From Channallabes apus (Eukaryota; Chordata; Actinopteri; Siluriformes; Clariidae), in the NCBI GenBank assembly GCA_030522415.1, contig CM060121.1, positions 25,816,412 to 25,880,411 of the forward strand: DNA of 64,000 bases. Direction: 5' to 3'. The notes under the pieces are model-generated. The model did no database searches and had not been told where the DNA came from. It was given only the letters and a program-made list of their open reading frames with translations. This document shows positions 1-64,000 of this stretch, in pieces. The translations under genes were made by a program, and so were the position numbers. Each line of letters opens with the position of its first letter. Within the stretch, counting starts at the first letter, position 1.

Positions 1-464
1 GAAAGAAGTCTTGTTGACATGACTCAACTTCAAGTCTCCGATGACTCCCAATCAACTTACAGACATGAATACTTCACCTTGATGACTGAGAATCTTTAGA
101 GACATACTGTACCATGTAGATTATTTAGTCATAAAATTAGGTACCTTGTGTAATTAAGTTTTTAAGGGATGGTTACAAGGTTTACAGTGAAGTTCATTTG
201 TTCATATCAATTTGTGATTAAAGAATGTGTATGTAAGCATCGTTAACAGGAAGGGTGATGAACATGAGTGGCAAAGGCTTTGGTCATTTAATTTCCAATT
301 TTGGTCATTTAATTGTACTGATAATCTAAATTTCCTCCACATTTATAACAGATCCCTGACACTTGCAAATCATATAAGATATTCCAGAAATCAGTTGTTA
401 GAGTGAGCAGCCAAGAGAGGAAGAGAGCGAGAGCGAGCTCATACTGATTCATCTCCCCTCATAC
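1..464. other. No gene recognised
   Basis: AT-rich sequence with no convincing reading frame and no repeat family that I recognise. One TACTGTA heptamer lies at 105-111. The right edge is the target site of the hAT element that starts at 465. Confidence 0.5.
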
Positions 465-1163
465 CAGTGCTTCTCAATTATTTTCTGTTATGCCCCCCCT
501 AGGAAGAAGAAAACATCTCGCACCCCCCGCGCGACTATAAATAGTATAATTTGTCTATAAAATTGTTATAACTACACCTCTGCATAACACTGTATCCTTA
601 AGAACGTATAAGAGAATAAAAAAGAAATATGGACCAACTTACAACAAAGAATAGCTTTATTAACTGTAACAGAAAAAATTTAAAGTGCATCTGAAATAAA
701 AAAAAAAATTATAAATCCTTAATTAAACTATAAACATTATTTGACTGACCATGTCAAACCATATGATACTGAAAAAAATACATAAAATCAATAAATAATA
801 ATGCATTCAAACTGATCACCAACATTAACTCAGGAGCACAATATTTAAAAAAAAAAAACTTTAACCTGCAAAACAAAAATATATAAAATAATTTGAGCTG
901 ATTTTTTTTTTATCAGAGATTAAGTCTGGATTAATGGCTACATTATGGATACAATGGCCTACACCACCGAGCGAATGCTCCCTGCATGCTCTCTGCGAAT
1001 GAGAGCGCCACTGCCCCCTAATGTAGTGGAGTGGTATTGCACTTTATTCTAGAACAGTAAAAAAATCAAAATAGAAAAAAGCATGTTCCCCGAGGTGAAT
1101 CTGAGCCTCACACCCCCCCCCCCCCCTCCCCGGGGGGCGCCCCCCACTATTTGAGAAACACTG
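465..1163. mobile_element. hAT-type MITE with 8-bp target duplication
   Basis: A 699-bp non-autonomous element. The left end reads cagtgcttctcaat and the right end atttgagaaacactg, an imperfect terminal inverted repeat, followed inward by C-rich and G-rich tracts (poly-C near 1111-1125). The flanking octamers cctcatac (457-464) and ccttatgc (1164-1171) match at 6 of 8 positions and differ only by transitions, as expected for an aged 8-bp hAT duplication. There is no transposase frame; the interior is A/T-rich. It would need a hAT transposase supplied in trans. Confidence 0.8.
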
Positions 1164-1397
1164 CCTTATGCAAAGTGAACTTCTCACTTTTCTTCTCAGC
1201 TCCGTAAAACTAATAGGAGTTTTTGACCGCTGCGTTTCCCATTACCCTCAGTGGGGTTAATATTTGTAAAAGACATGTTAAGATGAGATCAATGTTGGTT
1301 TAAGATTTAATAGTACACAAAAACAACCCCATGATGTGAACGATGCTAATGAGAGGAAGACTTAGGAAGGTCACAGGAAAGGCTGCTCAGGTATTTC

Positions 1398-2602
1398 CAG
1401 AGGTGGAAAGAGTAATACAATTTTGTACTCAAGTACAAGTACTGTTACTTCAGTGAAATTTTACTCAAGTACAAGTAAAGTTACCATTATAAAAATCTAC
1501 TCAAGTAAAAGTAAAAAGTAGCTCATTAAAAAAGTTACTCAGAGTAAAAGTTACCGAGTTACTTTTTTATTTTTATTTTTTTAACAGCGGGGTGGGATGA
1601 GGCATTCTAGCGTAGTTCAAAAAAGATGAGCAGATATAAATCTCAAACTAGTTGTTTTCACCTGAAGGAACACCTTTGCATAATAAAGCTGTTGTCTTTG
1701 ATGTGCTTGAAAATCAAAGTGGTCACTTAAATATGGTGTTACGTCCCAGTCTAGGGCCATACAGTAAAAGAATGGTTCAGAGTTCTATTTTAAACTGTAT
1801 GGAAATGGTGGTATATGGCAGAAAGAACTAGATCCAATCATTAACTGATGAAATAATGAGGTTTGTATACACACACACACACATACACACCCACACACAC
1901 ACACACACACCAGGAGGAGGATCAGATTCAGGATGGACCCAGGCCAAAATTATAAACAAAATGGTATTTATATTTAGTAGCTAGATTACCTGCAAAAAAA
2001 AAAGTAAATAAAAACACAAACAAAAATACAGGTACCTTCCCGGACTCCCTAAACCAAAAACAATGAAATTATCTACAAATATATACAAAGACCAACCAAA
2101 CCAAAGGGGCAAAGCAATAATCAAAGTCAATTGGAGGCAAAAAGTCAAAACCGGAATACACAACCAAATGTCAAAACGGCAAAATCACAACCATCTTTCC
2201 CGCGTCTCTCTCCGGTTTATATATGGTGGCGCTAGTCGATGACGTCACTCTCAATGCGGAAGCGAGTGTGTGGAAGGTCAGGTAGCTGCCGATGTGGGGA
2301 CAATCAGAAAACCTGGAGTAGAGTCTGGAGCGGCGCGCGACCAGGACATGATACACACACGCGTCACAACGGAGCATTTACACAAAGCATAATATTTTTA
2401 TTATTTTATCATTTTCATTCATTTATTTTTTACTCGGTAGCGAATATGATTTAAAATGTAGCGAATTACAATACTTCAAACAAAACGTACTTAAGTAAAA
2501 GTAAAATTACAGATTTTTAAAACTATAAAAAGTAGAAATACACAAAAAAACTACTCAATTACAGTAACGCGAGTAAATGTAATTCGTTACTTTCCACCTC
2601 TG
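1398..2602. mobile_element. hAT-type MITE with perfect 8-bp target duplication
   Basis: A 1205-bp non-autonomous element bounded by cagaggtggaaag and its inverted copy ctttccacctctg. The octamer ggtatttc is perfectly duplicated at 1390-1397 and 2603-2610, diagnostic of hAT insertion. Both ends carry subterminal repeats of the type gtactcaagtac/acttaagtaaaag, a likely transposase-binding region. The interior holds a (CA)n tract (about 1868-1911) and short open frames of no recognisable protein. The perfect duplication makes it younger than the element at 465. Confidence 0.9.
1868..1911. repeat. (CA)n microsatellite
   Basis: Interrupted CA dinucleotide array inside the hAT MITE. Confidence 0.9.
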
Positions 2603-2610
2603 GGTATTTC

Positions 2611-3293
2611 AGACTTCTTTTCAGCAGAAAGCCAAAGCCTTACAGAAAATGTAACAAAAGCTGAAGTATTTTACATTGTCATTCTAGAACACAACCTGCT
2701 ATTCCAGGTGCGTAAGCACCGAGGCAGCTATTCAGGATAATGGTAACATATTTCTCATGGGTGGAAGTGAGGTGTAAAGGGTGGTTATGGTATTACTGGT
2801 GAGTTTTTGCCTGAACCAGAGAATCAGACGCGAGAATTAGATTTCTCAGGTTTTTCAATAATTTCCATGCATGTATGCTAGAGATGGATAGATAAAAGGT
2901 TTTACTAAAAAAAAAAGGGGGGAAAAAAGCCTTTTAACTGTTTAGAGCAGAAAACACATACTGTACAGGACAAATGAACTTGTACTAGTTCATTTTGGAG
3001 AAAATAAAACTTCAAAAACCAAAACTGTGAACTGCAAATGTTCGTTCCGTTGTGTGTATGAACTGAACTTTGAGCTACCTCTTGTGAATTGTAAACTTAC
3101 AGTGCACATCACTGGCCACACACGTCAAGTTTAAATCTGTTTATGACAACAGAGACACATTTTAAGCAACAAACAGATACTGCTACTGGCTATCTGTACA
3201 TCACTAATTTCAATATTAACAGGTTAAATGTTTCACATTTTGTGTACTACAACACTGCCCTACGCTATTCTGCTCTGTCCACCACTCTTCATA
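2611..3293. other. No gene recognised
   Basis: Unique-looking AT-rich DNA between the hAT MITE and a Tc1 relic. It contains a TACTGTA heptamer at 2959-2965 but no coding frame or repeat ends that I recognise. Confidence 0.45.
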
Positions 3294-5068: not shown

Positions 5069-5077
5069 TATCTACAG

Positions 5078-5143
<66 letters not shown>
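5069..5143. repeat. (TCTA)n microsatellite carrying a 5-bp insertion
   Basis: About 17 tetranucleotide units. The second unit is followed by an extra CAGTA, giving TACAGTA at 5073-5079, after which the array resumes in register. This is the expected product of a Tc1-type excision at one TA of the array. Confidence 0.9.
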
Positions 5144-5618
5144 CATCTACTGAGTTTGAATCACTTGCACACTAATAAAAAATATTATAATGGCTGTATG
5201 GCAATAATACATATGTTAAAGACATTGGAAAGCTGGTATGTATTTATTTATTTAAAACTAGAATTAAATAGAAAGTTAAAAATCAAACATTTACACACAA
5301 CTTTACTCAAAGATCGGTAAACGAGGCTCATTTTGACAATTAATCATATATTTTTTTCTGTGGGCATATTTCTACTATATAGTACCTTGGGAAATACTTT
5401 AAACAAGCTTGGTGTCACCAACTTTTTATTTTTACTTGCATCATAGGAAATAATTGATCCCTCAGGTGAGTTGTCCTGCGTAACCAGTGCATTGGAAATG
5501 GCATTGCAACTTTTGCCTAGCAATGACCTGGGAACAAAAAAAACTACTTTAAATAGTTTGTATGTACAGTACAGTATGTATGAATCAGCACACCAAATAT
5601 TAATCAAATGTTTTGCTA
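5144..5618. other. No gene recognised
   Basis: AT-rich DNA with a 102-codon minus-strand frame (5652-5344) that resembles no family I know. Two overlapping TACAGTA heptamers lie at 5565-5571 and 5570-5576. Confidence 0.4.
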
Positions 5619-6036: not shown

Positions 6037-6355
6037 TATACTTTCAGTAATTTTTTCGCCCTGTTTATTAGACATTAGCACATAAGATTTTCATTATCAT
6101 CCTCCTCGAAGACCTGGTTAAAGAGCGACTGATGTGCTGTTAACTGTACTGTGATGTGAGTGTTTGTGACCTGTAGGTATTAATGTTCCATTCCTGTTTG
6201 ATCCATTTGGAGGAATAATTTGTTAACATATAGTTAATACTGGCAATGTCCCTGGAAAACAAAGCAGCACATGCATAATAAGAAAGCTGTGACAGGTACA
6301 CAAAGCCTTTGAATAATTCAATCTAAAAGTCAAATACAGAACTGACCTACATATA
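6037..6355. other. No gene recognised
   Basis: Spacer between two Tc1 copies; nothing supported beyond the TA target dinucleotide at 6354-6355. Confidence 0.4.
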
Positions 6356-7975
6356 CAGTGGTGTGAAAAACTATTTGCCCCCTTCCTGATTTCTTATTCT
6401 TTTCCATGTTTGTCACACTTAAATGTTTCTGCTCATCAAAAACCGTTAACTATTAGTCAAAGATAACATAATTGAACACAAAATGCAGTTTTTAAATGAA
6501 GGTTTACGTTATTAAGGGAGAAAAAAAACTCCAAATCTACATGGCCCTGTGTGAAAAAGTGATTGCCCCCCTTGTTAAAAAATAACTTAACTGTGGTTTA
6601 TCACACCTGAGTTCAATTTCTGTAGTCACCCCCAGGCCTGATTACTGCCACACCTGTTTCAATCAAGAAATCACTTAAATAGGAGCTACCTGACACAGAG
6701 AAGTAGACCAAAAGCACCTCAAAAGCTAGACATCATGCCAAGATCCAAAGAAATTCAGGAACAAATGAGAACAAAAGTAATTGAGATCTATCAGTCTGGT
6801 AAAGGTTATAAAGCCATTTCTAAAGCTTTGGGACTCCAGCGAACCACAGTGAGAGCCATTATCCACAAATGGCAAAAACATGGAACAGTGGTGAACCTTC
6901 CCAGGAGTGGCCGGCCGACCAAAATTACCCCAAGAGCGCAGAGACGACTCATCCGAGAGGCCACAAAAGACCCCAGGACAACATCTAAAGAACTGCAGGC
7001 CTCACTTGCCTCAATTAAAGTCAGTGTTCACGACTCCACCATAAGAAAGAGACTGGGCAAAAACGGCCTGCATGGCAGATTTCCAAGGCACAAACCACTT
7101 TTAAGCAAAAAGAACATTAAGGCTCGTCTCAATTTTGCTAAAAAACATCTCAATGATTGCCAAGACTTTTGGGAAAATACCTTGTGGACCGACGAGACAA
7201 AAGTTGAACTTTTTGGAAGGTGCGTGTCCCGTTACATCTGGCGTAAAAGTAACACAGCATTTCAGAAAAAGAACATCATACCAACAGTAAAATATGGTGG
7301 TGGTAGTGTGATGGTCTGGGGTTGTTTTGCTGCTTCAGGACCTGGAAGGCTTGCTGTGATAGATGGAACCATGAACTCTACTGTCTACCAAAAAATCCTG
7401 AAGGAGAATGTCCGGCCATCTGTTCGTCAACTCAAGCTGAAGCGATCTTGGGTGCTGCAGCAGGACAATGACCCAAAACACACCAGCAAATCCACCTCTG
7501 AATGGCTGAAGAAAAACAAAATGAAGACTTTGGAGTGGCCTAGTCAAAGTCCTGACCTGAATCCTATTGAGATGTTGTGGCATGACCTTAACAAGGCGGT
7601 TCATGCTAGAAAACCCTCAAATAAAGCTTAATTACAACAATTCTGCAAAGATGAGTGGGCCAAAATTCCTCCAGAGCGCTGTAAAAGACTCTTTGCAAGT
7701 TATCGCAAACGCTTGATTGCAGTTATTGCTGCTAAGGGCGGCCCAACCAGTTATTAGGTTCAGGGGGCAATTACTTTTTCACGCAGGGCCATGTAGGTTT
7801 GGATTTTTTTTCTCCCTAAATAATAAAACCCCTCATTTAAAAACTGCATTTTGTGTTTACTTGTGTTATCTTTGACTAATAGTTAAATGTGTTTGATGAT
7901 CAGAAACATTTTGTTTGACAAACATGCAAAAAAATAAGAAATCAGGAGGGGGGCAAATAGTTTTTCACACCACTG
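6356..7975 (+). mobile_element. Structurally complete Tc1-like transposon (copy 1)
   Basis: A 1620-bp element flanked by TA (6354-6355 and 7976-7977). The ends are exact inverted repeats starting cagtggtgtgaaaaac. A longer inverted repeat of roughly 200 bp (with internal mismatches) follows on each side, as in IR/DR-type fish Tc1 elements. A second copy of identical length is at 36446-38065. The single transposase frame has one nonsense codon (see the separate entry). Confidence 0.95.
6735..7757 (+). pseudogene. Tc1-type DD34E transposase with one premature stop
   Basis: Cut-and-paste transposase acting on its own inverted repeats in the nucleus. The frame opens with ATG at 6735; 298 codons are read before TAA at 7629-7631, and the same frame then continues to TAG at 7755-7757 (340 codons in total). 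Residues 1-110 are a paired-like double helix-turn-helix DNA-binding region with a GRP AT-hook-like motif near 59-61. The catalytic triad is visible as D153 (LWTDETK), D244 (QQDNDPKH) and E279 (NPIEMLW), with 34 residues between the last two. The stop replaces a Glu codon that is intact in the copy at 36.8 kb. All three catalytic residues precede it, so loss of activity is likely but not certain. Confidence 0.93.
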
Positions 7976-8239
7976 TATTTTCCCTGTAAGATTTTTACAT
8001 TGAAATACTAATGTTTGAAAATCAGAAATGTTTTAATGCTCACTTAATAATGAAGTCATGAATTGAGACTATATAACAAATAGGGTTGTTCCGATTCCGA
8101 TACTGGTATCGGAAATGCTGCCGATACCACAAAAAAAGCTGGCATCGGAATCGGCGAGTATTTGAGTCCACGTACCGATCCGATACCATTTTCCTAAACA
8201 TAACCTATTTATGCCCTCTAGCTTAGCTTACTTACAGAG

Positions 8240-8753: not shown

Positions 8754-8787
8754 CAGGGCTAGTAGTATTTTACTTAAAAAAAAAAAA

Positions 8788-8790
8788 AAG

Positions 8791-9246: not shown

Positions 9247-9889
9247 GTTTGTATAAAAACCACAATAAGCATGGTACTATATATGACCATAATAATAGCT
9301 TCTTTGAATGTTTAATATAACTTTCAGAGCTTCTGTATAATATCAGTTGGAGTATTGTGTTTATGAATGGTGTGGAATTCGTACTTGCTTTTTCCAGTTA
9401 GTTTAATGGTGTGTTGAACACTGATATCTGCATCCCTGTGAGAAGAAATACAGAGAATCACCTGAAGGGATGCAAAACTATCGACAAACTACAGTACATA
9501 CTGTAGATCTTTTATTTAAAGTAAATTAATACTATAAAACCACATATGTCAACAGTATTGGTTTTAATAACATTCTATATTTATTTGTTATTTGTTTTAA
9601 GTTTATGTTCATGTTTAAGAAGAAATTCATGTCTTTCTGACTAACTGGTGTACAAAAATGAAGTTGTGACTAATAACCCTAAATCTGTGTTGCTTTCCAT
9701 AAATTACAAAACATGTTTTACTGTCCAGACACAGATTTAGGAAATGAGAAAGTGGTAGATTTATGAAACAATGAGATTTTTTAATGTAGTGAAACAATAA
9801 AAGTCATTAATGGTTTCTTAAAAGTACCTAGACAATTGAATAAACTTTGATTATCTTGTTACAATGCTAATTATGAAAGGGCAGGGTTT
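9247..9889. other. No gene recognised
   Basis: AT-rich DNA without a supported gene. It contains TACAGTA (9490-9496) and TACTGTA (9499-9505) only two bases apart. Confidence 0.4.
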
Positions 9890-15321: not shown

Positions 15322-15322
15322 C

Positions 15323-16186: not shown

Positions 16187-16398
16187 CAGTGGTGTCAAAA
16201 GTATTCACATTCATTACTTGAGTAGAAGTATAGATACTAGGGTTTAAAAATACTTCTTTAGAAGTTGAAGTATCAACTCAAGCTTTTTACTCAAGTAAAA
16301 GTGTAAAAGTACTGGTTTCAAAACTACTTAAAGTATAAAAGTAAAAGTAACATGAGGGGGGGAAAAGCATTAAGGATAAAAGCTTAGGCTGTGCCACA
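16187..16398 (+). mobile_element. Left-end fragment of a hAT MITE
   Basis: It starts cagtggtgtcaaaagtattc and runs through the same subterminal sequence as the complete copies at 44990 and 52981, up to gcttaggctgtgccac. It then stops abruptly against a Tc1 fragment. The right end is missing. Confidence 0.85.
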
Positions 16399-17420
16399 GA
16401 CTACATCCCGCGGAGCACTGTTCAAGCGATCATTCAGAAATGGAAGGAGTATGGCACAACTGTAAACCTACCAAGACAAGGCCATCCACCTAAACTCACC
16501 GGCCGAACAAGGAGAGCGCTGATCAGAAATGCAGCCAAGAGGCCCATGGAGACTCTGGACGAGCTGCAGATATCTACAGCTCAGGTGGAGGAATCTGTCC
16601 ATAGGACAACTATTAGTCGTGCACTGCACAAAGTTGGCTTTTATGGAAGAGTGGCAAGAAGAAAGCCCTTGTTAACAGAAAAAAATTAGTTTGCAGTTTG
16701 CCACAAGCCATGTGGGGGACACAGCAAACATGTGGGAGAAGGTGCTCTGGTCAGATGAGACCAAAATGGAACTTTTTGGCCAAAATGCAAAACGCTATGT
16801 GTGGCGGAAAACTAACACTGCACATCACTCTGAACACACCATCCCCACTGTCAAATATGGTGGTGGCAGCATCATGCTCTGGGGGTGCTTCTCTTCAGCA
16901 GGGACAGGGAAGCTGGTCAGAATTGATGGGAAGATGGATGGAGCCAAATACAGAGCAATCTTGGAAGAAAACCTCTTGGAGTCTGCAAAAGACTTGAGAC
17001 TGGGGCAGAGGTTCACCTTCCAGCAGGACAACGACCCTAAACATAAAGCCAGGGCAACAATGGAATGGTTTAAAACAAAACATATCCATGTGTTAGAATG
17101 GCCCAGTCAAAGTCCAGATCTAAATCCAATCAGGAATCTGTGGCAAGATCTGACAACTGCTGTTCACAAACGCTGTCCATCTAATCTGACTGAGCTGGAG
17201 CTGTTTTGCAAAAAAGAATGGGCAAGGATTTCAGTCTCTAGATGTGCAAAGCTGGTAGAGACATACCCAAAAAAGACTGGCAGCTGTAATTGCAGCAAAA
17301 TGTGGTTCTACAAAGTATTGACTCAGGGGGGCTGAATAATTACGCACATCCCACTTTTCAGTTATTTATTTGTAAAAAAACTTTTGGAATCATGTATGAT
17401 TTTCGTTCCACTTTTACCAA
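16399..17420 (+). mobile_element. 5'-truncated Tc1-like element
   Basis: Both ends are lost. The left junction abuts the hAT fragment; the right side passes from typical Tc1 3' sequence (ggaatcatgtatgattttcg) into unrelated DNA around 17420. Confidence 0.8.
16405..17335 (+). pseudogene. Tc1 transposase relic with a frameshift and an altered catalytic Glu
   Basis: The first part (16405-16688) reads in one frame through the second helix-turn-helix (GTTVNLPRQGHPPKL...) and ends at TAG; the second part (16691-17335) is in another frame. The first catalytic Asp (LWSDETK) and second Asp (QQDNDPKH) are present. The third acidic position, normally NPIENLW, reads NPIRNLW, so the catalytic Glu is Arg. 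With the frameshift, the truncated N-terminus and the missing Glu the gene is dead. Confidence 0.88.
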
Positions 17421-19238: not shown

Positions 19239-19850
19239 AGACTAAGGGTTGTATACATTTGCAAATGCAATTATATGTTCTAAATCACATAATTGGTAGA
19301 AAAATATTGTGTCAATTAACCCATTTTATCAATTATAAATGAATAGCAATGTTTTTCACATGTGTTGGTGCGATATTTTGTAGTATGCAATTTAACATAA
19401 TTGCTTCTAGGAGTCGCCAACGGAAATAAAACAAACGCACAAAAGAAATACATGTACGCCAGACAGGAAGTTGGCGTGGAAGAACGCACATTCTCACGTT
19501 AATTTCACAGTTAGTAAATCCGACCGTGAGCGTGAAAACTGGCGTAAGCAAAGTTTTTGTGCATACGCAGCGTTGATACATGAGGCCCCAGGTCTGGGTC
19601 AGATAAAGAGTCTGGAGTTTGAATGTAGGAACTTCATGTACAGTACGATGCTTTGATTATGTTAGCAGAGTTGTTTGTGTATAAAATTGGATGGCTGAGA
19701 GAAAGACATTACCTTTCTTCATTCTGCAAATGTTTGCGGTTTGAGACTGGTCCTTCTGCAGAAGTTTAAATAAAATCTTTGTTACTTTGCTCTTACGCAG
19801 TGTATGAATTGATTGTCTTTATAATGTTTCCACCACAATACTTGGTGTTG

Positions 19851-20913: not shown

Positions 20914-21086
20914 ATCTTAGAAACATCCACTGTAGGTACATACTGTACACTCACCTAAAGGATTATTATAGTTCTATCCCCCACAAGTTGGTCCAGATCA
21001 CCTTGACCAAGCACTATGTTCCACATCAAATTGGAGATCTGATTTTGGATTATTACAACCATTTCAGGATGCGAGTCTCTGCAGGA
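20914..21086 (+). repeat. 173-bp direct repeat, copy 1
   Basis: It spans host flank, the Tc1 left end and the first HERO-like codons. Copy 2 (22197-22364, 168 bp) matches closely. The 5-bp length difference is the extra CTGTA in TACTGTA at 20941-20947, where copy 2 has plain TA (22224-22225). Confidence 0.9.
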
Positions 21087-23358: not shown

Positions 23359-24411
23359 ATGTCAGAATGGGAAAGAAAGGTGACAATTTTAAGCAATTTT
23401 GAGCGTGGCATGGTTGTTGGTGCCAGACAGGCCGGTCTGAGTATTTCACAATCTGCTCAGTTACTGGGATTTTCATGCACAACCATTTCTAGGGTTTACA
23501 AAGAATGGTGTGAAAAGGGAAAAACATCCAGTATGCGGCAGTCGTGAGGGCGAAAATGCTTTGTTGATGCTAGAGGTCAGAGGAGAATGGTCCGACTGAT
23601 TCAAGCTGATAGAAGAGCAACTTTGACTGAAATAACCACTCGTTACAACCGAGGTATGCAGCAAAGCATTTGTGAAGCCACAACACGCACAACCTTGAGG
23701 CGGATGGGCTACAACAGCAGAAGACCCCACCGGGTACCACTCATCTCCCCTACAAATAGGAAAAAGAGGCTACAATTTGCACAAGCTCACCAAAATTGTA
23801 CAGTTGAAGACTGGAAAAATGTTGCCTGGTCTGATGAGTCTCGATTTCTGTTGCGACATTCAAATGGTAGAGTCAGAATTTGGCGTAAACAGAATGAGAA
23901 CATGGATCCATCATGCCTTGTTACTACTGTGCAGGCTGGTGGTGGTGATTTAATGGTGTGAGGGATGTTTTCTTGGCACACTTTAGGCCCCTTAGTGCCA
24001 ATTGGGCATCGTTTAAATGCCACAGGCTACCTGAGCATTGTTTCTGACCATGTCCATCCCTTTATGACCACCATGTACTGATCCTCTGATATCTACTTCC
24101 AGCAGGATAATGCACCATTTCACAAAGCTCGAATCATTTCAAATTGGTTTCTTGAACATGACCATGAGTTCACTGTACTAAAATGGCCCCCACAGTCACC
24201 AGATCTCAACCCAATAGAGCATCTTTGGGATGTGGTGGAACGGGAGCTTTGTGCCCTGGATGTGCATCCCACAAATCTCCATCAACTGCAAGATGCTATC
24301 CTATCAATATGGGCCAACATTTCTAAAGAATGGTTTCAGCACCTTGTTGAAACAATGTCACGTAGAATTAAGGCAGTTCTGAAGGCGAAAGGGGGTCAAA
24401 CACCGTATTAG
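23359..24411 (+). pseudogene. Tc1-type DD34E transposase with three nonsense codons
   Basis: A single 350-codon frame from ATG 23359 to TAG 24409-24411 with no frameshift. In-frame TGA codons interrupt it at 23545-23547, 23959-23961 and 24078-24080. The helix-turn-helix region (LSISQSAQLLGFSCTTISRVY) and the complete triad are present: WSDESRF, QQDNAPFH and NPIEHLW. Damage is by point mutation only, unlike the deletions in the other Tc1 relics here. Confidence 0.9.
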
Positions 24412-28136: not shown

Positions 28137-29110
28137 TTTTAAAATAAGAATTTATGTTTATCATTAATAAAATGTATGGGCTAATGGCAAGTACGATGTA
28201 GGTTTAATTAAAATTTTATAATTTTACAAACTTCTTAGTCATACAAACTTCCTACAGTATCCCCTTCCTACCCGAGTCTTTATCTGAAATAGTTCCAGTG
28301 TTTAATTCTTTATTGAAAGCTGTTATCATTGTACACACCAGCAACTCCTTATTGACCAGCAGAACAAGGTCATAAAGCAAGCCATATCAAAGCTACAATT
28401 CGCACATACAATTCGCACAAGTCAAGTCTTTAGGTCTTTTGGCACAAGATAAACCTTTGGATCCAAGTACAAAAGTAATCCAAAATATTCTTAAACAAAT
28501 TTAAAAAATTGATGCAACAGTAAAAATGTACAAAGTAAAAGTGTTTTTACTGCAGAAAAATTATTTTGATCTAGGCAATCCTCTAGGCCCCAGTGAGCTA
28601 TACACTCATGGGAAGGGTCTACTGGCCCACAGTGCACTTAGTTAAACTCCAGAAGCAAGAATAATCTTTCACTGAATTAAATTTGGCATTATAAACTACT
28701 TCAATATTGGGCATTTCAAATTCTAAAAGGCCTTTTACAGAAACTGTTGATAAAATGAATGGTTGCATGATTTCAGTCTTGCTTCAGAAGTATGAAAAAA
28801 ACAAGATCTGTAGCTCACTTCTCAGGGAAATCAGATCCTGTAGCAGTAGAATCGCCCATGAGTTTATGTGCAGTACCAGCAACTGAGAAGGCAGGTGTAG
28901 AATAAAGATATATAGCGGGTTACAGTAATTTGACATTTCAACTATTTGGCATCTTTTATACAGAAAATCATCACATTTATTTGCAGCAGAGTGGTTAAAG
29001 TAGAATGGTAAATTCAAACATCACTGTAAAAAGATGTACAGTATACTGTAGTTCTGACCTTGTAACTCAAAGGTTGAAAGCAAAGGAGAACACCACTTCT
29101 ACTTTGCCCA
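28137..29110. other. No gene recognised
   Basis: AT-rich DNA with no supported gene. TAC(A/T)GTA heptamers near 28254 and 28924, and a pair at 29037-29043 and 29044-29050. Confidence 0.4.
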
Positions 29111-30098: not shown

Positions 30099-30595
30099 GA
30101 CATATATAAAATTGGCCGTTTTCCTATATTATATGTACATATATGTACATATATGCGTGCATATACAGTATGCATGCATATATGTACCTATATAGACATA
30201 TATAAAATTGGCCGTTTTCCTATATTATATGTACATATATGCGTGCATATATGCGTACATATATGTACCTATATAGTAATACAGTATATGTGACATATAT
30301 AAAATTGGCCGTTTTCCTATATTATATGTGCATATATGCGTGCATATATGCGTGCATATATGCGTACATATATGTACCTACAGTATATAGTAATACAGTA
30401 TATGACATATATAAAATTGGCCGTTTTCCTATATTATATGTGCATATATGCGTGCATATATGAACCTATATAGTAATACAGTATATGTGACATATAAAAT
30501 TGCCCATTTTCCTATATTTTATGTACATATATGCACATATATAGGTACATATATGCATGTATATATGTGTGCATATATGCACCTATATGTTTACC
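30099..30595. repeat. Left subterminal tandem array, unit about 85-112 bp
   Basis: Units begin gacatatataaaattggccg at 30099, 30195, 30292 and 30404, with a diverged one at 30489. Each unit is rich in palindromic catatatgcgtgcatatatg words. Unit lengths differ partly by 5-bp CAGTA insertions at TA (for example 30280-30286, 30379-30385). Confidence 0.9.
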
Positions 30596-36184: not shown

Positions 36185-36445
36185 AATTCAAGATTCAAAG
36201 AACTTCATTAATCCCAGAGGGAAATTACTTATTCTTCGTTACAGTTGCTCACAGCTGTTATCAAGTAGAAAAGAAAAGTAATAAATAGCTACAAAAAAAG
36301 AATAAAATAGTCCTAAAATAGTAAGTACCATATTGCACACTAAACTTTAAATGAATACACTAAATATGCCATTTTTATATTATTGCACACTACATACAGG
36401 TATGACCCAAGAGCATTAGTAAATATTGCACAATAATATAATATA

Positions 36446-38065
<1,620 letters not shown>

Positions 38066-38131
38066 TATGTATGTAATATTGTATTATTATATGTCATATT
38101 GTATTACATATTATATTGGGATTCTCTCAGG

Positions 38132-42640: not shown

Positions 42641-43823
42641 TTGCGTTTTTTAAAACTGTGACCTTAAATGCCTACTTTCTGTAAGCTGTTAAGGTCTTAA
42701 CGACCATTCCACAGGTGTATTAAAAACTCCCAGCCTGGTTCATTACTCAAAACCGCAATCATGGGTAAGACTGCCGACCTGACTGCTGTCCAGAAGGCCA
42801 TCATTGACACCCTCAAGCAAGAGGGTAAGACACAGAAAGAAATTTCTGAACAAATAGGCTGTTCCCAGAGTGCTGTATCAAGGCGCCTTAGTGGGAAGTC
42901 TGTGGGAAGGAAAAAGTGTGGCAGAAAACGCTGCACAACGAGAAGAGGTGACTGGGCTCTGAGGAAGATTGTGGAGAAGGACCGATTCCAGACCTTGGGG
43001 GACCTGCGGAAGCAGTGGACTGAGTCTGGAGTAGAAACACCCAGAGCCACCGTGTACAGGTGTGTGCAGGAAATGGGCTACAGGTTGCAAATTTTGCATG
43101 TCATTCGGAAATCAAGGTGCCAGAGTCTGGAGGAAGACTGGGGAGAGGGAAATGCCAAAATGCCTGAAGTCCAGTGTCAAGTACCCACAGTCAGTGACGG
43201 TCTGGGGTGCCATGTCAGCTGCTGGTGTTGGTCCACTGTGTTTTATCAAGGGCAGGGTCAATGCAGCTACAGTAGCTATCAGGAGATTTTGGAGCACTTC
43301 ATGCTTCCATCTGCTGAAAAGCTTTATGGAGATGAAGATTTCATTTTTCAGCACGACCTGGCACCTGCTCACAGTGCCAAAACCACTGGTACTGTAAATG
43401 GTTTACTGACCATGGTATTACTGTGCTCAATTGGCCTGCCAACTCTCCTGACCTGAACCCCATAGAGAATCTGTGGGATATTGTGAAGAGAAAGTTGAGA
43501 GACACAAGACACAAGAATCTTCAAAAGGATTCCCGATCAAGTATTGAGTGCATAACTGAACATAAATATTTGAAGGTTGACTTTTTTTGTATTCAAAACA
43601 CTTTTCTTTTATTGGTCATATGAAATATGTAAATTTTTTGAGATAGGGATTTTGGGTTTTCATGAGCTGTGTGCCACAATCACCAATATTAAAACAATAA
43701 AAGGCTTGAACTACTTCAGTTGTGTGTAATGAATCTAAAATATATGAAAGTCTAATGTTTACCAGTACATTACAGAAAATAATGAACTTTATCACAATAT
43801 GCAAAAATTTTGAAAAGGACCTG
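42641..43823 (+). mobile_element. Tc1-like element with internal deletions, left end missing
   Basis: The right end (gaaaaggacctg then TA at 43824) is the inverted repeat of a common fish Tc1 family. A matching left terminus is not found, though the usual 5' leader (cagcctggttcattactcaa) is present. Two 5-bp insertions forming TACAGTA and TACTGTA interrupt the coding part. Confidence 0.82.
42761..43545 (+). pseudogene. Tc1 transposase with deleted catalytic Asp region
   Basis: ATG 42761 opens MGKTADLTAVQKAIIDTLKQ and the helix-turn-helix (KEISEQIGCSQSAVSRRLSG). After MGYR (about 43088) roughly 125 bp, including the first catalytic Asp block, is missing. Sequence resumes as KFCMSFGNQGARVWRKTGE in another frame. 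The second Asp block (FQHDLAPAHS) and NPIENLW are present. The C-terminal 130 or so bases are also lost, the junction lying near 43515. The insertions at 43268-43274 and 43390-43396 each shift the frame by 5. Deletion extents are judged from memory of the family. Confidence 0.83.
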
Positions 43824-43932
43824 TATATATAGAATTACAAAAGGGGAAAATTGTAATGGAAAAATCACATTCATGTACAGTGGAACCTCGGATTATGAGC
43901 ATAATTCATTCCGGAAGTGGGCTCGTATTCCA

Positions 43933-46512: not shown

Positions 46513-46890
46513 TTTTTTGTAGTAAGTGTGCCACGTAGACTATAAAAGCTTTAAACCTGTCTGATGAAAGACAAGGCCAAGAATACTGTAGAACAGAAAC
46601 AAACTGATTGTAGTTGCTGTTGAATAAATGATAAGACAAGGACATCTGGTCTGGGTCAAATAAAGAGTCGTCAGTTTGTATGTAGGAACTATGTGTACGG
46701 GCTTTGATTATGTTAGCAGAGATGTTTGTGCATAAAATGGGATGGCTAAAAGAAAGTCATTATCTTTCTCCATGCTGCAACTGTTTGCTGTACGAGACCA
46801 GTCCTTCTGCAAACGTTTAAATAAATCCTTTGTTACATTGCTCTTACCCAGTGTATGAATTACTTGTCTTTTTAATGTTTGCAGAATTTC
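46513..46890. repeat. Dispersed repeat copy B (Harbinger empty site)
   Basis: Aligns with 17691-17830 joined to 19592-19850. At about 46641 it reads gacatctggtctgggtc, the uninterrupted Harbinger target. At 46584-46590 it has TACTGTA where copy A has TA (17771-17772). At 46696 it has TA where copy A has TACAGTA (19639-19645). Confidence 0.88.
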
Positions 46891-47040: not shown

Positions 47041-48790
47041 AAGTAAAAAGTATGTCATGTCTCTTTACACGCCCCCAGAATGTCCTGCCTGCACACCGGT
47101 TTCTTATCCATCACTGATTTCATCCAGCTTATAAGGAGTTGCGGGACACTATCCCTTTGCTGGATTATTATGTGTTGTTTCGCTGCAATTTTCTCGTTCA
47201 TGGTCTTCACATTGCCGATTTAGCTTTTTTTTTCGGATTCTCGCTTCCCCTCTCACCATTTGTATTGGTTGCTTTGCTTGGATTTAACAGCTTTGAACTC
47301 TCATTTTTGTTTCCTCGATTACGGCCCTACTTAATGTTTTATCTCGATGCCCTTGCTGACGGATCTCACGTCTTTTGAAATTACGCTTTTGCCTTCCTGA
47401 CTACGACTCTGTCTCACGTTTTGCTCGACGCTGTCACTGACGGATCTCACTGACTGGAGGGGACCTAACTCCCGTTTCCAGTATGGACCGATCACAGGAA
47501 CCTTGAATATCTACTGTACATACAGTACTGCCAAGAGGCTTACTGCCCGACAGGCCCGGTGGGCACTGTTTTTTTCTAGATTCAACTTCGTCCTGTTCTA
47601 CTGGCCAGGTTCTAAACACACCAAGCCCAGTTCTCCTTTTCCCATGACTACGTGCCATGGAACACAATCCTGCTCTCTCGCTGTCTAATAGTAGCCATGG
47701 AACTAGACATTGAGGCAAAGGTCATGCAGGTGCTGACTCAGGAGCCCGGCCCAATCAATGTTCCCCCGAATCGTCTCGTTCCCATTTGTTTATGCTTGCA
47801 GGTCTTGGAATGGGGCCATGGATCCAGGTTGTCCTGTCACCTGGGCTCCTCCCAAACCCGATTCATCATTGAACAACGTTTCTGGTGGCCCACATTGGGG
47901 AGGGAAGTGTCCAGCTTTGTGGTGGCCTGCGACATCTGCGCTCACTGAAAAAAAGGGGCCACCGGCCCCCTGCTGGCCTCTTCAGACCCTTACCCGTTCC
48001 TCACCGTCCCTGGTCCCATATTTCACTGGATTTCGTAATGGGCCTACCCTCGTTGGACGGGAACACTTATATTATTACCATCGTCAACCGTCGTCTGTTC
48101 ATCTAGTTCCCCTTCCCAAGCTTCCCACCGCCAAGGAGACAGCAGGGCAACTGATTCTTCATGTTTTTCATCTTCATGGTCTCCCCACAGACATCGTCTT
48201 GGATTGAGGCCCACAGTTCAGTGCACACTTCTGGAAGGCCTTTTGTAAGCTCATCACGGCCACTCCTAGTCTGTCTTCTGGGATTCATCCCCAATCCAAC
48301 GGGCAAACTGAACGCAAGAATCAGGAGATGGAAGTCACTCTCCGGTGCATGATCACTTGTGATGCTACCACCTGGAGCATGTTAGTCGAGTATGCCCACA
48401 ACTCCTTGCTATCCGCCTCCACAGGGATTCAAGTGCTGTCTGGGCTACCAGCCACCGCTGTTCCCAACTCAAGAAGAGGAAGTAGAGTTTCTCTTGGCCC
48501 AATATTTCGTCTGCCGCTGCAAACGGACTTGGCTACGAGCAAGACAATCCCTGCTGCAAGCCTCCAGGTTGTACAAGAGACAGGCTGACCGCCACCGCAC
48601 CAAGGCTCCCAGGTACGGTGGAGGGCAGAGAGTCATGCTCGTCACCAGGAAGATCCCTCTTACAAACTCTCACCGCGCTTCATCGGTCACTTCACTGTGT
48701 CCAAAGTAATCAACCCGTGCGCAGTTATACTTCTGCTCCCATCCTCGATGGATGGATCAACCCGACCTTCCACGTTTCACAGCTATGACG
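47041..48790 (+). mobile_element. Degenerate Gypsy-type LTR retrotransposon
   Basis: Pol relic on the plus strand (47520-48785). Pyrimidine-rich sequences on both sides share motifs such as cttttgaaattacgcttttg (47375) and cttttgatatcacgcttctg (48808), which may be LTR remnants. Gag and the RT core are absent. Confidence 0.6.
47520..48785 (+). pseudogene. Gypsy RNase H-integrase pseudogene
   Basis: Frame-shifted pieces in order. RNase H end: [20 protein letters not shown] (47535-47600). Integrase zinc domain: [19 protein letters not shown] then [10 protein letters not shown] and CDICAH (47800-47948). Catalytic core: [17 protein letters not shown] with the first Asp (48015-48065), a stop where DRGPQF is expected (about 48205), then SSGIHPQSNGQTER with the Glu (48275-48315). 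C-terminus: ILDGWINPTFHVSQ (48745-48785). Several indels make it non-functional. It resembles the younger element at 54-59 kb but is a distinct, older copy. Confidence 0.82.
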
Positions 48791-50217: not shown

Positions 50218-51280
50218 GGGGTCCGTTCTTCCTACGTCGCTAACTCAGTTAGCTGGATTTGATTGTTGTGGATTTGTCCTGATCTTGGATTGTTTCGTTC
50301 TTCGATGCGCTTCTCGCATTTGCTGTCATAGTAACATGTCCGTAAGCTTAAACCTGCTCGGTAGCAGGTTTATTTCATGTAAACAGGATTTAGGTTGCAT
50401 TCATGCCGGGATATGATTGGTTGAAATGGCGAGGTCACATCTGATTGGTTAAAGAGCACGACTGACGCGGATTGACTCACATGGGAAAAGAAAAGTATCT
50501 TGAATATATACACACACATAATCGCTATCAAATATTATATTAGAAAATTCATAGGTTTATTATTATCAATATGATATTACTATTATAATGAAGCCTAGGC
50601 ACGAGACAGCTGTCAAGACCATTAATACAAATGGTCTTGTATCTTGTATCATTGTATAATGTTTATTTTGTAACATTTATTTTTCAGGGGTTTGCCGTGA
50701 ATAAATATGCAAATAAATATTTATATATAATAAACAATATATTTTTTATAATGAAAAATTGGACAAAACTAATTTTATTATAAAATAAATAATATAAAAG
50801 TATACATGTATTTGAAAAAAAGTATTCATATTTCGAATTTTTCATATCTAACATATATATATATTTCATATTGCTTATTTTATTTTATTGTCTCATGTAA
50901 TTTGTAAACCATTAACCTATGAATTTATGTTCTAATATTTTATAGCGATTACTGTATGTGGGGGGGGGGGGGGCAATCCATCGCAGGGGGGCATTTCAGC
51001 GCATAACACGTGTTACAAAAAAAATTGAGCCACTCTTTTGGCATTTCGACAACTAATCGAAGGGGTTGTGATCAGTGTTTCTACTGTCGATGCATATCGC
51101 CTTTTAAACCAACGCACGAATGCGCAATAATCCTAGACAACTCAATCCAGCTATACTAATCATCAACAACAGGTGGCTCGAAGAACCAACTTAGCTGGAT
51201 TGTAATTAGCACGATTATCTCATCTTAGATGCGTCAATTCATCTCGGATGTATCAAGCGACGTATGAAGAACGGACCCCC
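50218..51280. mobile_element. Non-autonomous TIR element, GGGGTCCGTTCTTC ends
   Basis: The ends ggggtccgttcttcctacgt and the inverted acgtatgaagaacggacccc are strong inverted repeats extending inward (agctggatt blocks on both sides). About 1.06 kb, no transposase. It lies within the rearranged hAT interior. Superfamily not certain: Harbinger- or ISL2EU-like ends are possible, and no clear target duplication was seen. A long G run lies near 50960-50973. Confidence 0.7.
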
Positions 51281-51948: not shown

Positions 51949-52248
51949 GCTCAGGCGAATGGAGCAAACGAGAGGTAACGGGAACTACAATTCCCATCAG
52001 CCCAGGCGTGGCCGTCATCCTTTGCGGTCGCTACAGATCCAGTAATGCGCATATCCGATTTAAAACCTGCTTACTCCGTAATGATTAATTACTCTTTCCA
52101 TCTCTTTTCCTTCGCCACTTATAGCAGCACCCGCCATTTCCGCATTACTGGATCTGTAGCAACAACAGACCGCAAAGGATGATGGTCACGCCTGGGCTGA
52201 TGGGAATTGTAGTTCCCTCTACCTCCCGTTCGCTCCATTCGCCTGAGC
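51949..52248. repeat. 300-bp palindrome with ZNF143-like motifs in both arms
   Basis: Arms 51949-52049 and 52141-52248 are inverted copies with minor differences, around a 90-bp AT-richer loop. Each arm contains actacaattcccatcagccc (51984-52003 plus; 52194-52213 minus). This matches the ZNF143/THAP11 promoter motif ACTAYRNNNCCCR (established motif, recalled). It may be a MITE; target duplications were not resolved. Confidence 0.8.
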
Positions 52249-55560: not shown

Positions 55561-58500
55561 GAGGAGAGAGATACTCGCCGGGTCACCTTCGTCTCTCCGC
55601 CATCACCACCAACTCCATCCCCGAGCCGTATCGAGACCTATCAGAAGTTTTCTGCAGGCGACGAGCCACTCATCTTCCTCCTCATCGCCCATACGACCTC
55701 GCCATAGACCTACAACCCGGTACGATCCCCCCCCGCGGCCATCTCTACTCACTCACACCCACCGAGACCCAGGTGATGGAGGAATATGTAAACAACGCCT
55801 TGCGCCAAGGCACCATCAGGCCCTCCTCCTCACCTGCCACCGCGGGGTTCTTCTTCGTGAAGAAGAGAGGCGGTGAACTTCGCCCTTGTGTCGACTATCG
55901 GGGGCTCAACAATCTCACCATCAAAAACCGACATCCTCTGCCTCTTACCAACTCAGCCCTGGACGCCCTCTCTGGCGCCACCGTCTTTACGAAGTTGGAC
56001 CTCCGGAGCGCCTACAACTTGGTGCGCATCAGAGAGGGCGATGAGTGGAAGACGGCGTTCATCACCCCCACCGGACATTATGAAACCCTCGTCATCCCAT
56101 TCGGACTGTGCAATGCCCCCGCCGCATTCCAACACTTCATCAACGACGTCCTTAGGGACATGCTCGGTCGGTGGGCATTCGCTTACCTGGACGATATTCT
56201 CATCTATTCACGCACCATGGAAGAACACACCCAGCACGTCAGGGCGGTTCTAAAGAGATTACTCGCCCACCAACTGTACTGTAAGTTGGAAAAGTGCGCT
56301 TTTCACGAGCGCTCCACCACGTTCCTGGGTTTTGTCATCTCGCCCCAGGGTGTGGCCATGGACCCGCAGAAGCTAGAGGTTGTGTGTCATTGGCCCCTAC
56401 CCAAGACCCTCAAACAGCTTCAACGGTTTCTCGGGTTTGCGAACTTCTATCGTCGCTTTATCCGGGACTACAGTACAGTTGCCGCCCCCCTAACCGCTCT
56501 GACCCGTCCCTCCTCTCTCCCTTTCCACCTCAACCCGGCAGCTGTCTCCGCTTTCCGATCACTGTGTCACCGCTTCACCACCGCACCGATTCTCCACCAC
56601 CCAGATGTCAATAAACCATTCATTGTAGAGGTGGATGCTTCAGATGTGGGCGCTGGAGCTATCCTCTCACAGCAAGGTCCAGACCAAAAACTACACCCAT
56701 GTGGTTTTTTCTCCAGAAAATTTGACTCCACTCAGCAGCGATACGGGGTAGGGGACCGCGAACTGCTGGCCATAAAGTGGGCTCTGGAGGAGTGGCGTCA
56801 CTGGCTCCAGGGCGTCAGTGAGCCATTCATAGTCTGGACGGACCATCAAAATTTAATCACCATCAGAACCATTAAACAGTTAAATCCACGACAGGCGCGG
56901 TGGGCATTATTCTTTGAGAACTATAACTTTCACCTCTCATACCGCCTGGGGTCCAAGAACACCAAAGCGGACGCTCTCTCCCGACAACTAGAGATGGACC
57001 TTCCCCGGGCGGACCCCGCGCCTGTCCTCCCCTCTTCCGAGATCATCGCCCCCCTGCAACTGGACCTGGAAACGAGAGTGCGCCAGGCACGAGGTACAGA
57101 GACCGAACCAGCAGGTGTGCCACCTGGACGACTCTTCGTGCCCGAAGGGATGAGACCAGAGGTTCTCCATTGGGGACACTCCTCCCCAATTTCCGGCCAT
57201 CCAGGCACCCGACGGTCCCTCCAATTCATCCAGCGAGACTTCTGGTGGCCGTCTATGACGAGGGACATCCAAGAGTTCGTTCAGGCATGCCCAGTGTGCG
57301 CCAGGGCAAAGAACACCAACCAACCCTCTCCAGGAGAACTGCAACCACTCCCAGTCCCTCGACGGCCCTGGACGCACATTGCCGTGGACTTCATCACGGG
57401 CCTGCCGGCCTCCGAAGGAAAAGACACCATCCTCACGATCGTGGATCGGTTCTCTAAGACCGTGCACCTGGTGGCTCTCGCCGGACTCCCGTCAGCAAAG
57501 AAAACAGCCGAGCTGATTTTAGAGCACGTAGTCCGTCTGCATGTGTTCCCCAAGGATATCGACAGAGGGCCCCAGTTCACAGCCCGGTTCTGGAAGGCCT
57601 TCTGCCGTCTGATCGACTCCACCTGCAGTCTGTCCTCCGGATACCACCCACAGACTAACGGTCAGACGGAGCGGACCAACCAACAACTGGAGCGCTACCT
57701 GAGTTGTTTCGTAGCGGACCGCCAGCGCTCCTGGGCACGCTATCTCATCTGGGCGGAACTATCACACAACCTCCACATCTCCTCTGCCACCAACCTAAGC
57801 ACATTTGAGGTATGCCACGGTTTCCAACCCTCCGTGTTCAACCACCCAGAGCCGGAGGTTTTACATTTACATTTAGGCATTTGGCAGACGCTCTTATCCA
57901 GAACGACTTACATTTTTATTTTTTATTTATCTCATTACACACCTGAGCAGTTGAGGGTTAAGGGCCTTGCTCAAGGGCCCAACAGTGGCAGCTTGGTGGT
58001 TGTGGGGTTTGAACCTGGGATCTTCCAGACCGTAGTCCAATGCCTTAACCACTGAGCTACCCCTGCACCCCTTGATGTACCGTCAGCCCAACAGTTGGTC
58101 CGCAGATGTCGGCGGCTCTGGATTACGACCAACCAGGCCATCCAATGTGCCAATGCCCGCTACACCCACCAACATCGCCGCCGACATCCTCCAGGACGAC
58201 TATACTACGTAGGTGACAAGGTATGGCTGTCCACAAAAAACCTCCACCTTCACACCGAGTCAAAGAAGCTTTCCCCCAGATTCATAGGACCATACCACAT
58301 CACTCACAGAATTAACCCTGTCACCTACCGGCTCCAGCTGCCTGCGGCGCTCCGGATTCACCCAGTATTTCACCTATCCCAGTTCAAGCCCTTCATCACC
58401 TCACCCATGATTCCACCCACCCCCCCAGCTCCTCCTCCCCGGATCATCGACGGCGGTCCCGCCTACACCGTGCGCCGAATCCTTGACTCGCGCCCTCGGG

Positions 58501-58709
58501 GCAAAGGTACGCAATACCTGGTGGACTGGGAGGGCTATGGCCCCGAGGAGCGATCTTGGATCCCGGCCCGGTTCATTCTCGACCCTCAGCTAATTCGGGA
58601 CTACCGTCACAGGGTATCCTCCATCCCAGGACCGTCAGGAGCCAGTCCTGGACAGGGGGGTACTGTCATACACACTCAATCTGCGCCCGGCACTAGGACC
58701 CGGAAGTAA
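55494..58709 (+). pseudogene. Gypsy pol lacking protease; RT-RNase H-integrase-chromodomain
   Basis: One frame overlapping the gag end and continuing into the 3' LTR. No protease active site is found between the zinc knuckle and RT, so that region is deleted. RT: LDLRSAYNLVRI, VIPFGLCNAPAAFQ and the YLDD active site (about 56184). RNase H: VEVDASDVGAGA (about 56628). Integrase: HHCC zinc domain (57160-57305), Asp in VDFITG (57385), a shortened DIDRGPQF block lacking two residues (57555), and Glu in GQTERTN (57661). The SINE (213 bp including duplication) adds a stop at 58053-58055. The frame resumes at 58074 with the integrase C-terminus and a chromodomain ([10 protein letters not shown]...[17 protein letters not shown], about 58465-58575). 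Confidence 0.9.
57861..58073 (-). mobile_element. tRNA-derived SINE in the integrase gene
   Basis: On the minus strand the head has an A-box-like tagctcagtggttaag and B-box-like ggttcaaacccc. The 3' end (plus tttacatttaggcatttggc) carries the gcagacgctcttatcca core common to fish SINE/LINE tails; a plus-strand tail of the same family is at 34317. tt is repeated at the junctions. It is the only disruption of the pol reading frame by insertion. Confidence 0.88.
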
Positions 58710-59046: not shown

Positions 59047-59165
59047 ATCATTTTGACTTATACACATTCACATTTCATACAAACTTAAGTAATTCTTTTG
59101 ATTGTGTAAAGCTGCTTTGAAACAATGTCAATTGTTAAAAGTGCTACACAAATAAAATTTTATTG

Positions 59166-62453: not shown

Positions 62454-62818
62454 ACTACTTAATTTTAATTTTTTTTAAACCTATTAAATATATATCAAGA
62501 GAAATGTATGCTTTTTATGTATCTTAAAAATACTTTTTTTACCTTATCTAAAATAAAGCTTTTTTTTCAATGATGGACTTTTCCTGTATATCCAATCATT
62601 CAACAATTTGAAATTTGTGACATTTACCACTACCTGCTGTTTACTTCATATGGTGCATAAGGCAAGAGAAGAACAATTATTGTTAACTTTTAAAGGCATT
62701 GAGGCATCCTGAAAGTTAATTTCTCATTTATATCTCATTTATATATTTATATTATAAGATTCAATGAAAATTATAAAGCATTGGACTAATCCAAATATCT
62801 TCAATATCATTCATTACT
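62454..62818. other. No gene recognised
   Basis: AT-rich; nothing supported. Confidence 0.4.
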
Positions 62819-62960
62819 TGTGGTATTCATGGCTCAGTGGTAGGGTAGGCTCTTTGTCTATCGTGTAGACATCCTACAGTAAGTTTGAACCTTGGCCAAG
62901 GCAACTTGTTAATACTGTAGGAGCAGTTGAAAGAAGCAGTTTCTTTCTGATACTTGCTCT
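62819..62960 (+). mobile_element. tRNA-derived SINE head
   Basis: A-box-like tggctcagtgg and B-box-like agtttgaacct, the spacing enlarged by a TACAGTA (62875-62881) just before the B box. Not a functional tRNA gene: the fold and anticodon arm are not preserved. Confidence 0.55.
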
Positions 62961-63538
62961 TTTATATACAGTAATCATTGATAACTTATCATGTGATAAA
63001 GTCACCCGACATTTATGTCAGCTGATAAAAGTTTCATTGTGCATTTTTTATGATACTTATTCCCTCTGTAATGAGGCATAACTTTTACCCATTATATATT
63101 TACTATTGCTTTGCTTTTTTATTATATATGTATTTTTTTATTAATCTATTATTAATCTTTCCTTCTCTTTCATTCTCCACTACCACCCTACATCCAACCA
63201 CCCACTCACAATCAGTAATGCAGGTCTTCGTGGACCACGGAATATGCACAAATTGGCTAACAGGTAAAAGAGACATCACATGTCTATATTATGTCTGTAT
63301 TATATTCAACTAATAAAGACATCACAAGTAAACTACAGTACAAAAAAGTGCGATAAGTTCTATTACTAAATGACAACTGCAAGCCAAGTCATTATGTGTT
63401 ATGAGCACATAAGGCCTTAAAATATACGGTCCAAAAACAAGCTATTTTTACATACACACTTATAAACATGAATGCTATGGCAATATTAGGCAGCAAGTGA
63501 ACATTTTATCTTGGATGTTGATATGTGGGAAGTAGAAA
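62961..63538. other. AT-rich spacer
   Basis: Contains TACAGTA near 62968 and 63335 and the candidate exon at 63216-63263; otherwise nothing supported. Confidence 0.4.
63216..63263 (+). other. Candidate 48-nt host exon
   Basis: Follows a long pyrimidine/C-rich tract ending acaatcag and ends CAG|gtaaaag. It is less AT-rich than its surroundings. Phase 1 reads NAGLRGPRNMHKLAN; phase 2 reads MQVFVDHGICTNWLT. Could be chance. Confidence 0.25.
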
Positions 63539-63813
63539 AAAATGATAAGTATAAGGATTTGAATGACTTTAACAAGGGTCAAATTGTGTTGGCTAGATAA
63601 CTGTACCAGAGCAACTCCAAAACACAGTCATGCATGTGGGGAGTAAAGAATGGCCTGTGTAGACCAATTCACTGTAGGTTAAATTACTGAAAAGGTTAAT
63701 GCTGGTTCCCATATAAAATGTCAGAACACACAGTGCATTCCTGCTTTGGTGGCAAGGAAGGAAACCTACTCAATATTAGGTGGGTGGTCACGATGTTATG
63801 GTTGATCGACGTG
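63539..63813 (+). mobile_element. Internally deleted Tc1-like fragment
   Basis: The transposase N-terminus (DFNKGQIVLAR-like coding at 63555-63600) and a middle block (gtcagaacacacagtgcat) join directly to the right end (caatattaggtgggtggtca, ttatggttgatcgacgtg, then TA at 63814). Same family as 5619 and 9890. No catalytic part remains. Confidence 0.65.
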
Positions 63814-64000
63814 TACCAGTCAAAAGTGCTTATAAGTACTCATGGCTTTAATATTGCCTTCATTTACAGTCTCATTAGTCAGTAGTTAGTTGGTTCCCCT
63901 AAGAATAAGCTTTTTTGGTAGCTACTTTTTATTTCAATGTCATTGTTTTGATTGTGCCAGTAACTTATGGTTATTAATTATACTATGTTGATTAAATGAT
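63814..64000. other. Nothing recognised
   Basis: AT-rich right margin of the window. Confidence 0.4.

Follow-up and report, generated by a model that had tools for sequence, protein, structure and literature searches.

Excision of the Tc1-type transposon Sleeping Beauty (SB) is established to leave the footprint TAC(A/T)GTA (PMC3432063), and a CAG footprint is also stated in PMC8151067. Fish carry swarms of nonautonomous Tc1 elements, for example Tipnon of catfish with 32,000 copies (PMC4683633). We describe a swarm of TACAGTA/TACTGTA heptamers in a 64,000-nucleotide stretch of DNA from Channallabes apus (the window, G000:C18:25816412-25880411; contig CM060121.1 of NCBI GenBank assembly GCA_030522415.1) and throughout the corresponding genome of 1,164,683,209 bases in 93 contigs. 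Most of these heptamers are very probably canonical excision footprints ("scars") of Tc1-type, SB-like transposons. The seven letters at TA are identical to those left by SB and occur in both orientations, and the genome holds CAG-ended elements and an SB-like transposase; whereas the SB footprint is described as the product of an engineered or remobilized transposon in cells and tumors (PMC3432063, PMC4378557, PMC8151067), the record described here is natural, presumably inherited, and amounts to near a million words per genome. The Tipnon swarm is similar in that Tc1-type elements reach high copy number in a fish, but it counts resident copies (PMC4683633), whereas the heptamers would count departed ones. 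The footprint chemistry is textbook knowledge; genome-wide counts of natural Tc1 footprints appear in none of the titles and abstracts listed for the open-licence literature, which is weak evidence that the scale of this natural record is new.

In the proposed cycle, an element with CAG...CTG ends would insert at TA and duplicate it, and the transposase would later excise the element with a 3-base stagger such that three terminal bases from one strand, CAG or CTG, stay behind. Once sealed by end joining, the site would read TA-CAG-TA or TA-CTG-TA, five bases more than the original TA, and repetition of the cycle within the lineage could have generated the ~0.8 million copies above background.

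Results

Excess of TACAGTA/TACTGTA in the window and the genome

The window contains 64 heptamers (40 TACAGTA and 24 TACTGTA), close to the ~60 counted by hand in the initial annotation. Markov models of order 1, 2, and 3 predict 8.6, 11.8, and 14.4 for both words together (4-7 per heptamer), and the expectation rises to 21.0 and 45.2 at orders 4 and 5, which learn from the 5- and 6-base pieces of TACAGTA/TACTGTA themselves. The runners-up among TANNNTA words of the window, TAAAATA and TATTATA, were each found 21 times, compared to 16.5 and 12.1 expected at order 3. Twenty 10-kb stretches spaced on contigs C1-C4 (195 kb without N) held 176 heptamers, against expectations of 26.7-37.1 (orders 1-3), 56.5 (order 4), and 117.4 (order 5), and a replicate of five later stretches from C6, C9, C12, C15, and C18 held 45 compared to 8.3-9.5 expected. 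These 25 stretches alone yielded 221 heptamers, or 0.90/kb (bootstrap 0.71-1.13); local density lay between 3 and 27 heptamers per 10 kb. For the window and the 25 stretches combined (309 kb), 285 heptamers were observed versus 45.2 on average over 20 simulations, using an order-3 model trained after the heptamers were masked. When words in the window and the 20 stretches were ranked by z-score, only simple-sequence words and TCTGTCT stood above or between the two heptamers, and the 240 heptamer sites in this DNA fell into 227 distinct contexts.

Genome-wide, TACAGTA occurred 489,770 times on the forward and 489,833 times on the reverse strand, for a total of 979,603 (0.84/kb). The reversed spelling ATGACAT was found 260,532 times, and TAGACTA, with identical letters and TA at both ends, 82,780 times, which gives a ratio of 11.8:1 for the heptamer over this word. 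A background of 0.146/kb accounts for ~0.17 million by chance and leaves an excess of ~0.81 million; extrapolation from the sample gave 0.88 million (0.65-1.15 million). Comparison with a Markov background, suggested as a check in the initial annotation, thus did not refute its proposal when run on the window's own genome. The mouse genome is ~2.7 Gb in size. Both words were likewise counted genome-wide in the mouse, where they exceed 300,000 (PMC4378557), and at that genome size their density is ~0.11/kb compared to 0.84/kb here. Published footprints of the zebrafish Tc1 element ZB vary from 0 to 3 bases (PMC7913693), so the canonical heptamer may undercount excisions.

Insertion of CAGTA or CTGTA at TA

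The window and the sampled stretches were self-aligned to find TA-only partners that are five bases shorter. Of the heptamer sites whose flanks could be aligned, 11 of 40 had such a partner, compared to 2 of 259 other TANNNTA sites (Fisher p = 4e-9), with both control matches falling in a single TATA run; the first run, before the replicate stretches were added, gave 8/29 versus 0/210. In a joined-flank test, 12 of 32 informative heptamer sites (of 284) scored versus 10 of 197 controls (of 1462; p = 2e-6). Among the 56 unique 5-base gap sites, 9 belonged to the CAGTA/CTGTA class, no two of them at the same place, and the next class numbered 4 (an earlier, looser tally gave 14/86 sites, some scored on both strands). 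Insertions of this class at TA are accordingly commoner than those of any other single 5-base class, a comparison that the initial annotation had asked for. Three pairs that it had picked out by eye (46584 versus 17771, 20941 versus 22224, and 30379 versus 30268) align as 5-base TA/TACWGTA differences. Additional small indels blur the comparison of 19639 with 46696, though 19639 has a TA-only partner elsewhere (Table 1), and for 30280 versus 30091 the alignment provides no usable pair.

TCTA microsatellites served as a built-in reference. The pattern TCTATCTATCTA-N5-TCTATCTATCTA was found at 500 places, and among the 100 of these that were listed, all on C1-C4, the insert was CAGTA in 67 and CTGTA in 24, or 91 in all. 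After merging by array, 42 of 45 arrays carried CAGTA or CTGTA, divided 21:21 by first type, and the CAG and CTG versions are about equally frequent. The microsatellite interruption in the window noted earlier, at 5073-5079, is likewise exactly CAGTA inserted at TA. Seven-base gaps in TCTA arrays numbered 58, of which 42 rows are single-base losses (counted by eye) and 8 contain CTG or CAG but lack the second TA. Seven of these eight lie in one array (G000:C9:10523856-10524443) with repeated 3-base CTG inserts; inserts of this kind are perhaps imperfect footprints, those on C9 perhaps amplified with their array. Reversed TCTA patterns match identical scars and were therefore unusable as a control. 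The sites thus have the composition of a footprint, TA plus terminal CAG or CTG plus TA, with a net gain of five bases at a TA target, and the proposal that such 5-base indels are a major mutational force is supported both in number (~0.8 million above background) and in their share of 5-base indels (9/56 gap sites; 91 among the 100 TCTA-array places listed out of 500).

Target-like flanks

The heptamer flanks display a weak palindromic signature, AYR-TA-YRT, with A-Y-R on the left and Y-R-T on the right. The full six-position pattern occurred in 10/227 contexts versus 16/2466 controls (p = 2e-5), with A at -3 in 101/227 versus 849/2466 (p = 0.003) and T at +3 in 112/227 versus 849/2466 (p = 1e-5). 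The target palindrome of SB is AYATATRT. For ZB, a preference for ATATATAT is described (PMC7913693). The flanks resemble the Tc1/SB target palindrome, weakly, and less closely than the sequences beside resident Tc1 family A, whose ends show a sharper pattern (-3 A in 10/12, -1 A in 11/12); family C ends partly follow it (-3 A in 7/9, -1 A in 6/9). Along with the genome-wide excess and the presence or absence of CAGTA/CTGTA in paralogues and microsatellites, these flanks support the Tc1 excision origin put forward in the initial annotation.

Alternative explanations

The heptamers might instead be solo or truncated ends of elements that start with CAGTA (TA + CAGTA...). A family starting TACAGTACCAGTC is indeed present, but the 226 exact genome matches to its 23-base end, a count that omits diverged ends, are negligible beside 979,603 heptamers, and nine near-exact TACAGTACCAGTC ends all lie in L001-L008, stretches picked by that very pattern. 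Sequences on both sides of the heptamers are unrelated, as the 227 contexts of 240 sites attest, and the aligned partners carry TA at the site; the unrelated flanks refute element ends as the main cause, to which we assign a very small probability. Similarly improbable is a functional motif, such as a binding or small-RNA target site, maintained by selection. One-mismatch neighbors of TACAGTA show little excess (1053, including 23 Tc1 ends, versus a mean of ~957 in 10 simulations), as a constrained motif would, but such a motif would not give 5-base presence/absence differences between paralogues, inserts in TCTA arrays and transposon relics, or target-like flanks, and it was rejected because the insertion pattern and flanks do not fit. 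Replication slippage or biased small-indel repair favoring CAGTA would be in keeping with the tandem duplications, such as GGTTA, that do occur (4/7 at one repeat site). In TCTA arrays, however, CAGTA is no copy of the neighboring sequence, and other TA-N3-TA words have at most a modest excess (largest z of 4.3 versus 26 for the heptamer). This process was rejected on both grounds, and we consider it most unlikely to be the source.

Several observations weigh against an origin by Tc1 excision or limit its reach. All comparisons were made within one genome, from which the excision events are inferred. Certain heptamers belong to the original sequence of a repeat or were multiplied along with it. 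Heptamer 56469 is in frame within a gypsy-like pol open reading frame, and a copy in stretch L023 shares it, which makes it probably a native part of the element rather than a scar; 56277 is likewise shared. At G000:C1:247718-251841, TACAGTA recurs mostly at a 25-base period in a satellite that contains the heptamer. The TCTA array at G000:C1:56413062-56414967 has 36 listed CAGTA-interrupted units at irregular spacing, where a scar was apparently amplified together with its microsatellite; this one array supplies 36 of the 67 raw CAGTA places. Three of the 11 TA-only partners (for L012, L027, and L032) have ragged flanks, leaving 8 that are firm, and of the 10 controls that scored in the joined-flank test, 9 are A/T-only words. 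Single classes just as large are also seen for other gap lengths (7-base AAGTCCG, 9; 8-base ACAGGGTG, 8; 3-base ACC, 18), possibly each a single family indel seen across many copies. One conserved repeat site has seven 5-base insertions, comprising four GGTTA tandem duplications, one CAGTA, and two one-letter CAGTA variants. With regard to the flanks, the joint occurrence of A at -3 and T at +3 does not differ significantly from controls (36/227 versus 300/2466, p = 0.12), six family B ends lack a clear pattern (-3 A in 3/6, -2 A in 5/6), and -1 A is found in 37% of scars versus 11/12 beside family A ends (p = 2e-4); family A is therefore not the sole source.

Excision by other transposon types was assessed from their characteristic words. 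The C. elegans Tc1-type footprint, from a 2-base stagger, is TACATGTA, and mariner-type words are TATCATA/TATGATA and TACCATA. None was in excess: TACATGTA occurred 18 times (13.8 expected), TATCATA/TATGATA 46 times (38.0 expected), and TACCATA 24 times (23.2 expected). Some longer palindromic words between TAs are also in excess in the window and L009-L028, for example TACTTAAGTA (12 versus 0.4 expected) and TATGTACATA (12 versus 0.8), possibly owing to a single repeat family.

Age and significance of the scars

Steady build-up of scars would be expected to make the one-mismatch excess equal the perfect excess of ~240. The observed one-mismatch excess of ~73 suggests a mean divergence near 4%, a rough value that depends on the Markov model. 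The scars are little decayed and hence apparently recent; at the conserved repeat site, two of the three scar-like inserts differ from CAGTA by one letter, a small result in the other direction. On balance, we lean slightly toward viewing this genome as an odometer of cut-and-paste transposition, with several hundred thousand inherited, little-decayed scars, ~12 per recognizable Tc1 transposase locus. Most Tc1 insertions of the lineage would then be gone, and 5-base indels in this vertebrate would stem mainly from germline hopping that is recent or still under way. Transposon copy counts miss departed elements, whereas a roughly datable scar gives a minimum for cumulative excisions, and countable scars let a transposition rate be estimated from a single assembly. 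The scars also explain a sizeable class of small insertions regarded as random in indel models. Each scar may shift a reading frame and provides a further TA target. No related genome is required for the TCTA-array test, which is applicable to any assembly and, across fishes and amphibians, would show whether the present genome is exceptional.

Tc1-like elements and candidate sources

The Tc1 transposase of the window matches HTH_SB (PF25787) and the Sleeping Beauty structure 5cr4 (E = 1e-70). CAG-ended elements had been indicated at 6356, 36446, and 43823; the first two correspond to the complete copies in Table 1, and the nearest exact TACAGT end to 43823 is at 43876. The genome therefore contains candidate source elements, which are CAG-ended, and an SB-like transposase. 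The window and 25 stretches contain 20 loci with Tc1 transposase similarity compared to ~240 excess heptamers, or ~12 scars per recognizable transposase locus; with short nonautonomous copies included, the ratio relative to every CAG-ended element would be lower, by an uncertain margin. Two short elements at 52032-52158 (127 bases) and 32028-32218 (191 bases) have imperfect inverted ends beginning with CAG and are possible nonautonomous Tc1-like elements. Plasmid sequences gave no match to a 36-base Tc1 end or to the complete element.

Table 1. Tc1-like elements, scars, and other heptamers in the window
Feature	Position	Strand	Evidence or remarks
Complete Tc1-like element, CAG ends (TACAGTGGTGTGAAAAA), SB-like transposase reading frame	6354..7977	+	22/22 matching inverted ends
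Second complete copy, same family as 6354 element	36444..38067	+	22/22 matching inverted ends; 2.0% different
Tc1-like transposase relic	16351..17332	+	Transposase similarity
Tc1-like transposase relic	23404..24366	.	Transposase similarity
Tc1-like transposase relic bearing scar 43268	42701..43479	+	Protein similarity
End of second CAG-ended family (TACAGTGGAACCTCGGATT)	43876..43911	+	Exact TACAGT end
Scar TACTGTA	20941..20947	.	TA-only paralogue at 22224
Scar TACTGTA	46584..46590	.	TA-only paralogue at 17771
Scar TACAGTA in tandem-repeat unit	30379..30385	.	Neighboring unit TA-only
Scar TACAGTA in tandem array of 30379	30164..30170	.	TA-only units
Scar TACAGTA	19639..19645	.	TA-only paralogue L019:7536-7644; blurred versus 46696
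Scar TACTGTA	50950..50956	.	TA-only paralogue L031:7552-7673; other TANNNTA of that pair also gave control matches
Scar TACAGTA	5073..5079	.	Inside (TCTA)n microsatellite
Scar TACAGTA	43268..43274	.	Inside Tc1-like transposase relic; similarity shifts frame here
Heptamer TACTGTA	47512..47518	.	Gypsy-like pol relic; frame change across 47512 + 47521 pair
Heptamer TACAGTA	47521..47527	.	Second of pair, gypsy-like relic
Overlapping heptamers TACAGTACAGTA (scar-on-scar)	5565..5576	.	
Two heptamers, 9 bases apart	9490..9505	.	
Adjacent heptamers TACAGTA TACTGTA	29037..29050	.	
All 64 heptamers	1..64000	.	~50 above order-3 expectation; individual scar status unproven outside separately listed sites

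Individual sites and other features of the window

At scar 43268, BLASTP similarity to the window's own Tc1 protein spans residues 191-246 and resumes in another frame from residue 249; a Pfam search with the two short flanking pieces gave no match. The frame change at 47512/47521 was judged by eye from three-frame translations. Heptamer pairs at ≤5 bases numbered 6 compared to 1.7 expected with random TA placement (maximum of 7 in 300 draws), so that any enrichment of scar-on-scar events is mild. At all other distances up to 1 kb the counts were within the random range, with the 61-120-base bin at its upper edge (36 versus 21.1, maximum 36).

Long gypsy-like long terminal repeat element reading frames of 283, 858, and 217 amino acids occupy 54709-58709, and part of a related copy is present in L023. 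Inside the span of a gypsy-like reading frame, positions 57871-57924 (- strand) match the 3' element of the UnaL2 long interspersed nuclear element above the Rfam gathering score, the sole match of the Rfam search. Long reading frames at 12733-15360 and 38051-41062 (875 and 1003 amino acids) resemble non-long terminal repeat reverse transcriptases, as judged by eye.

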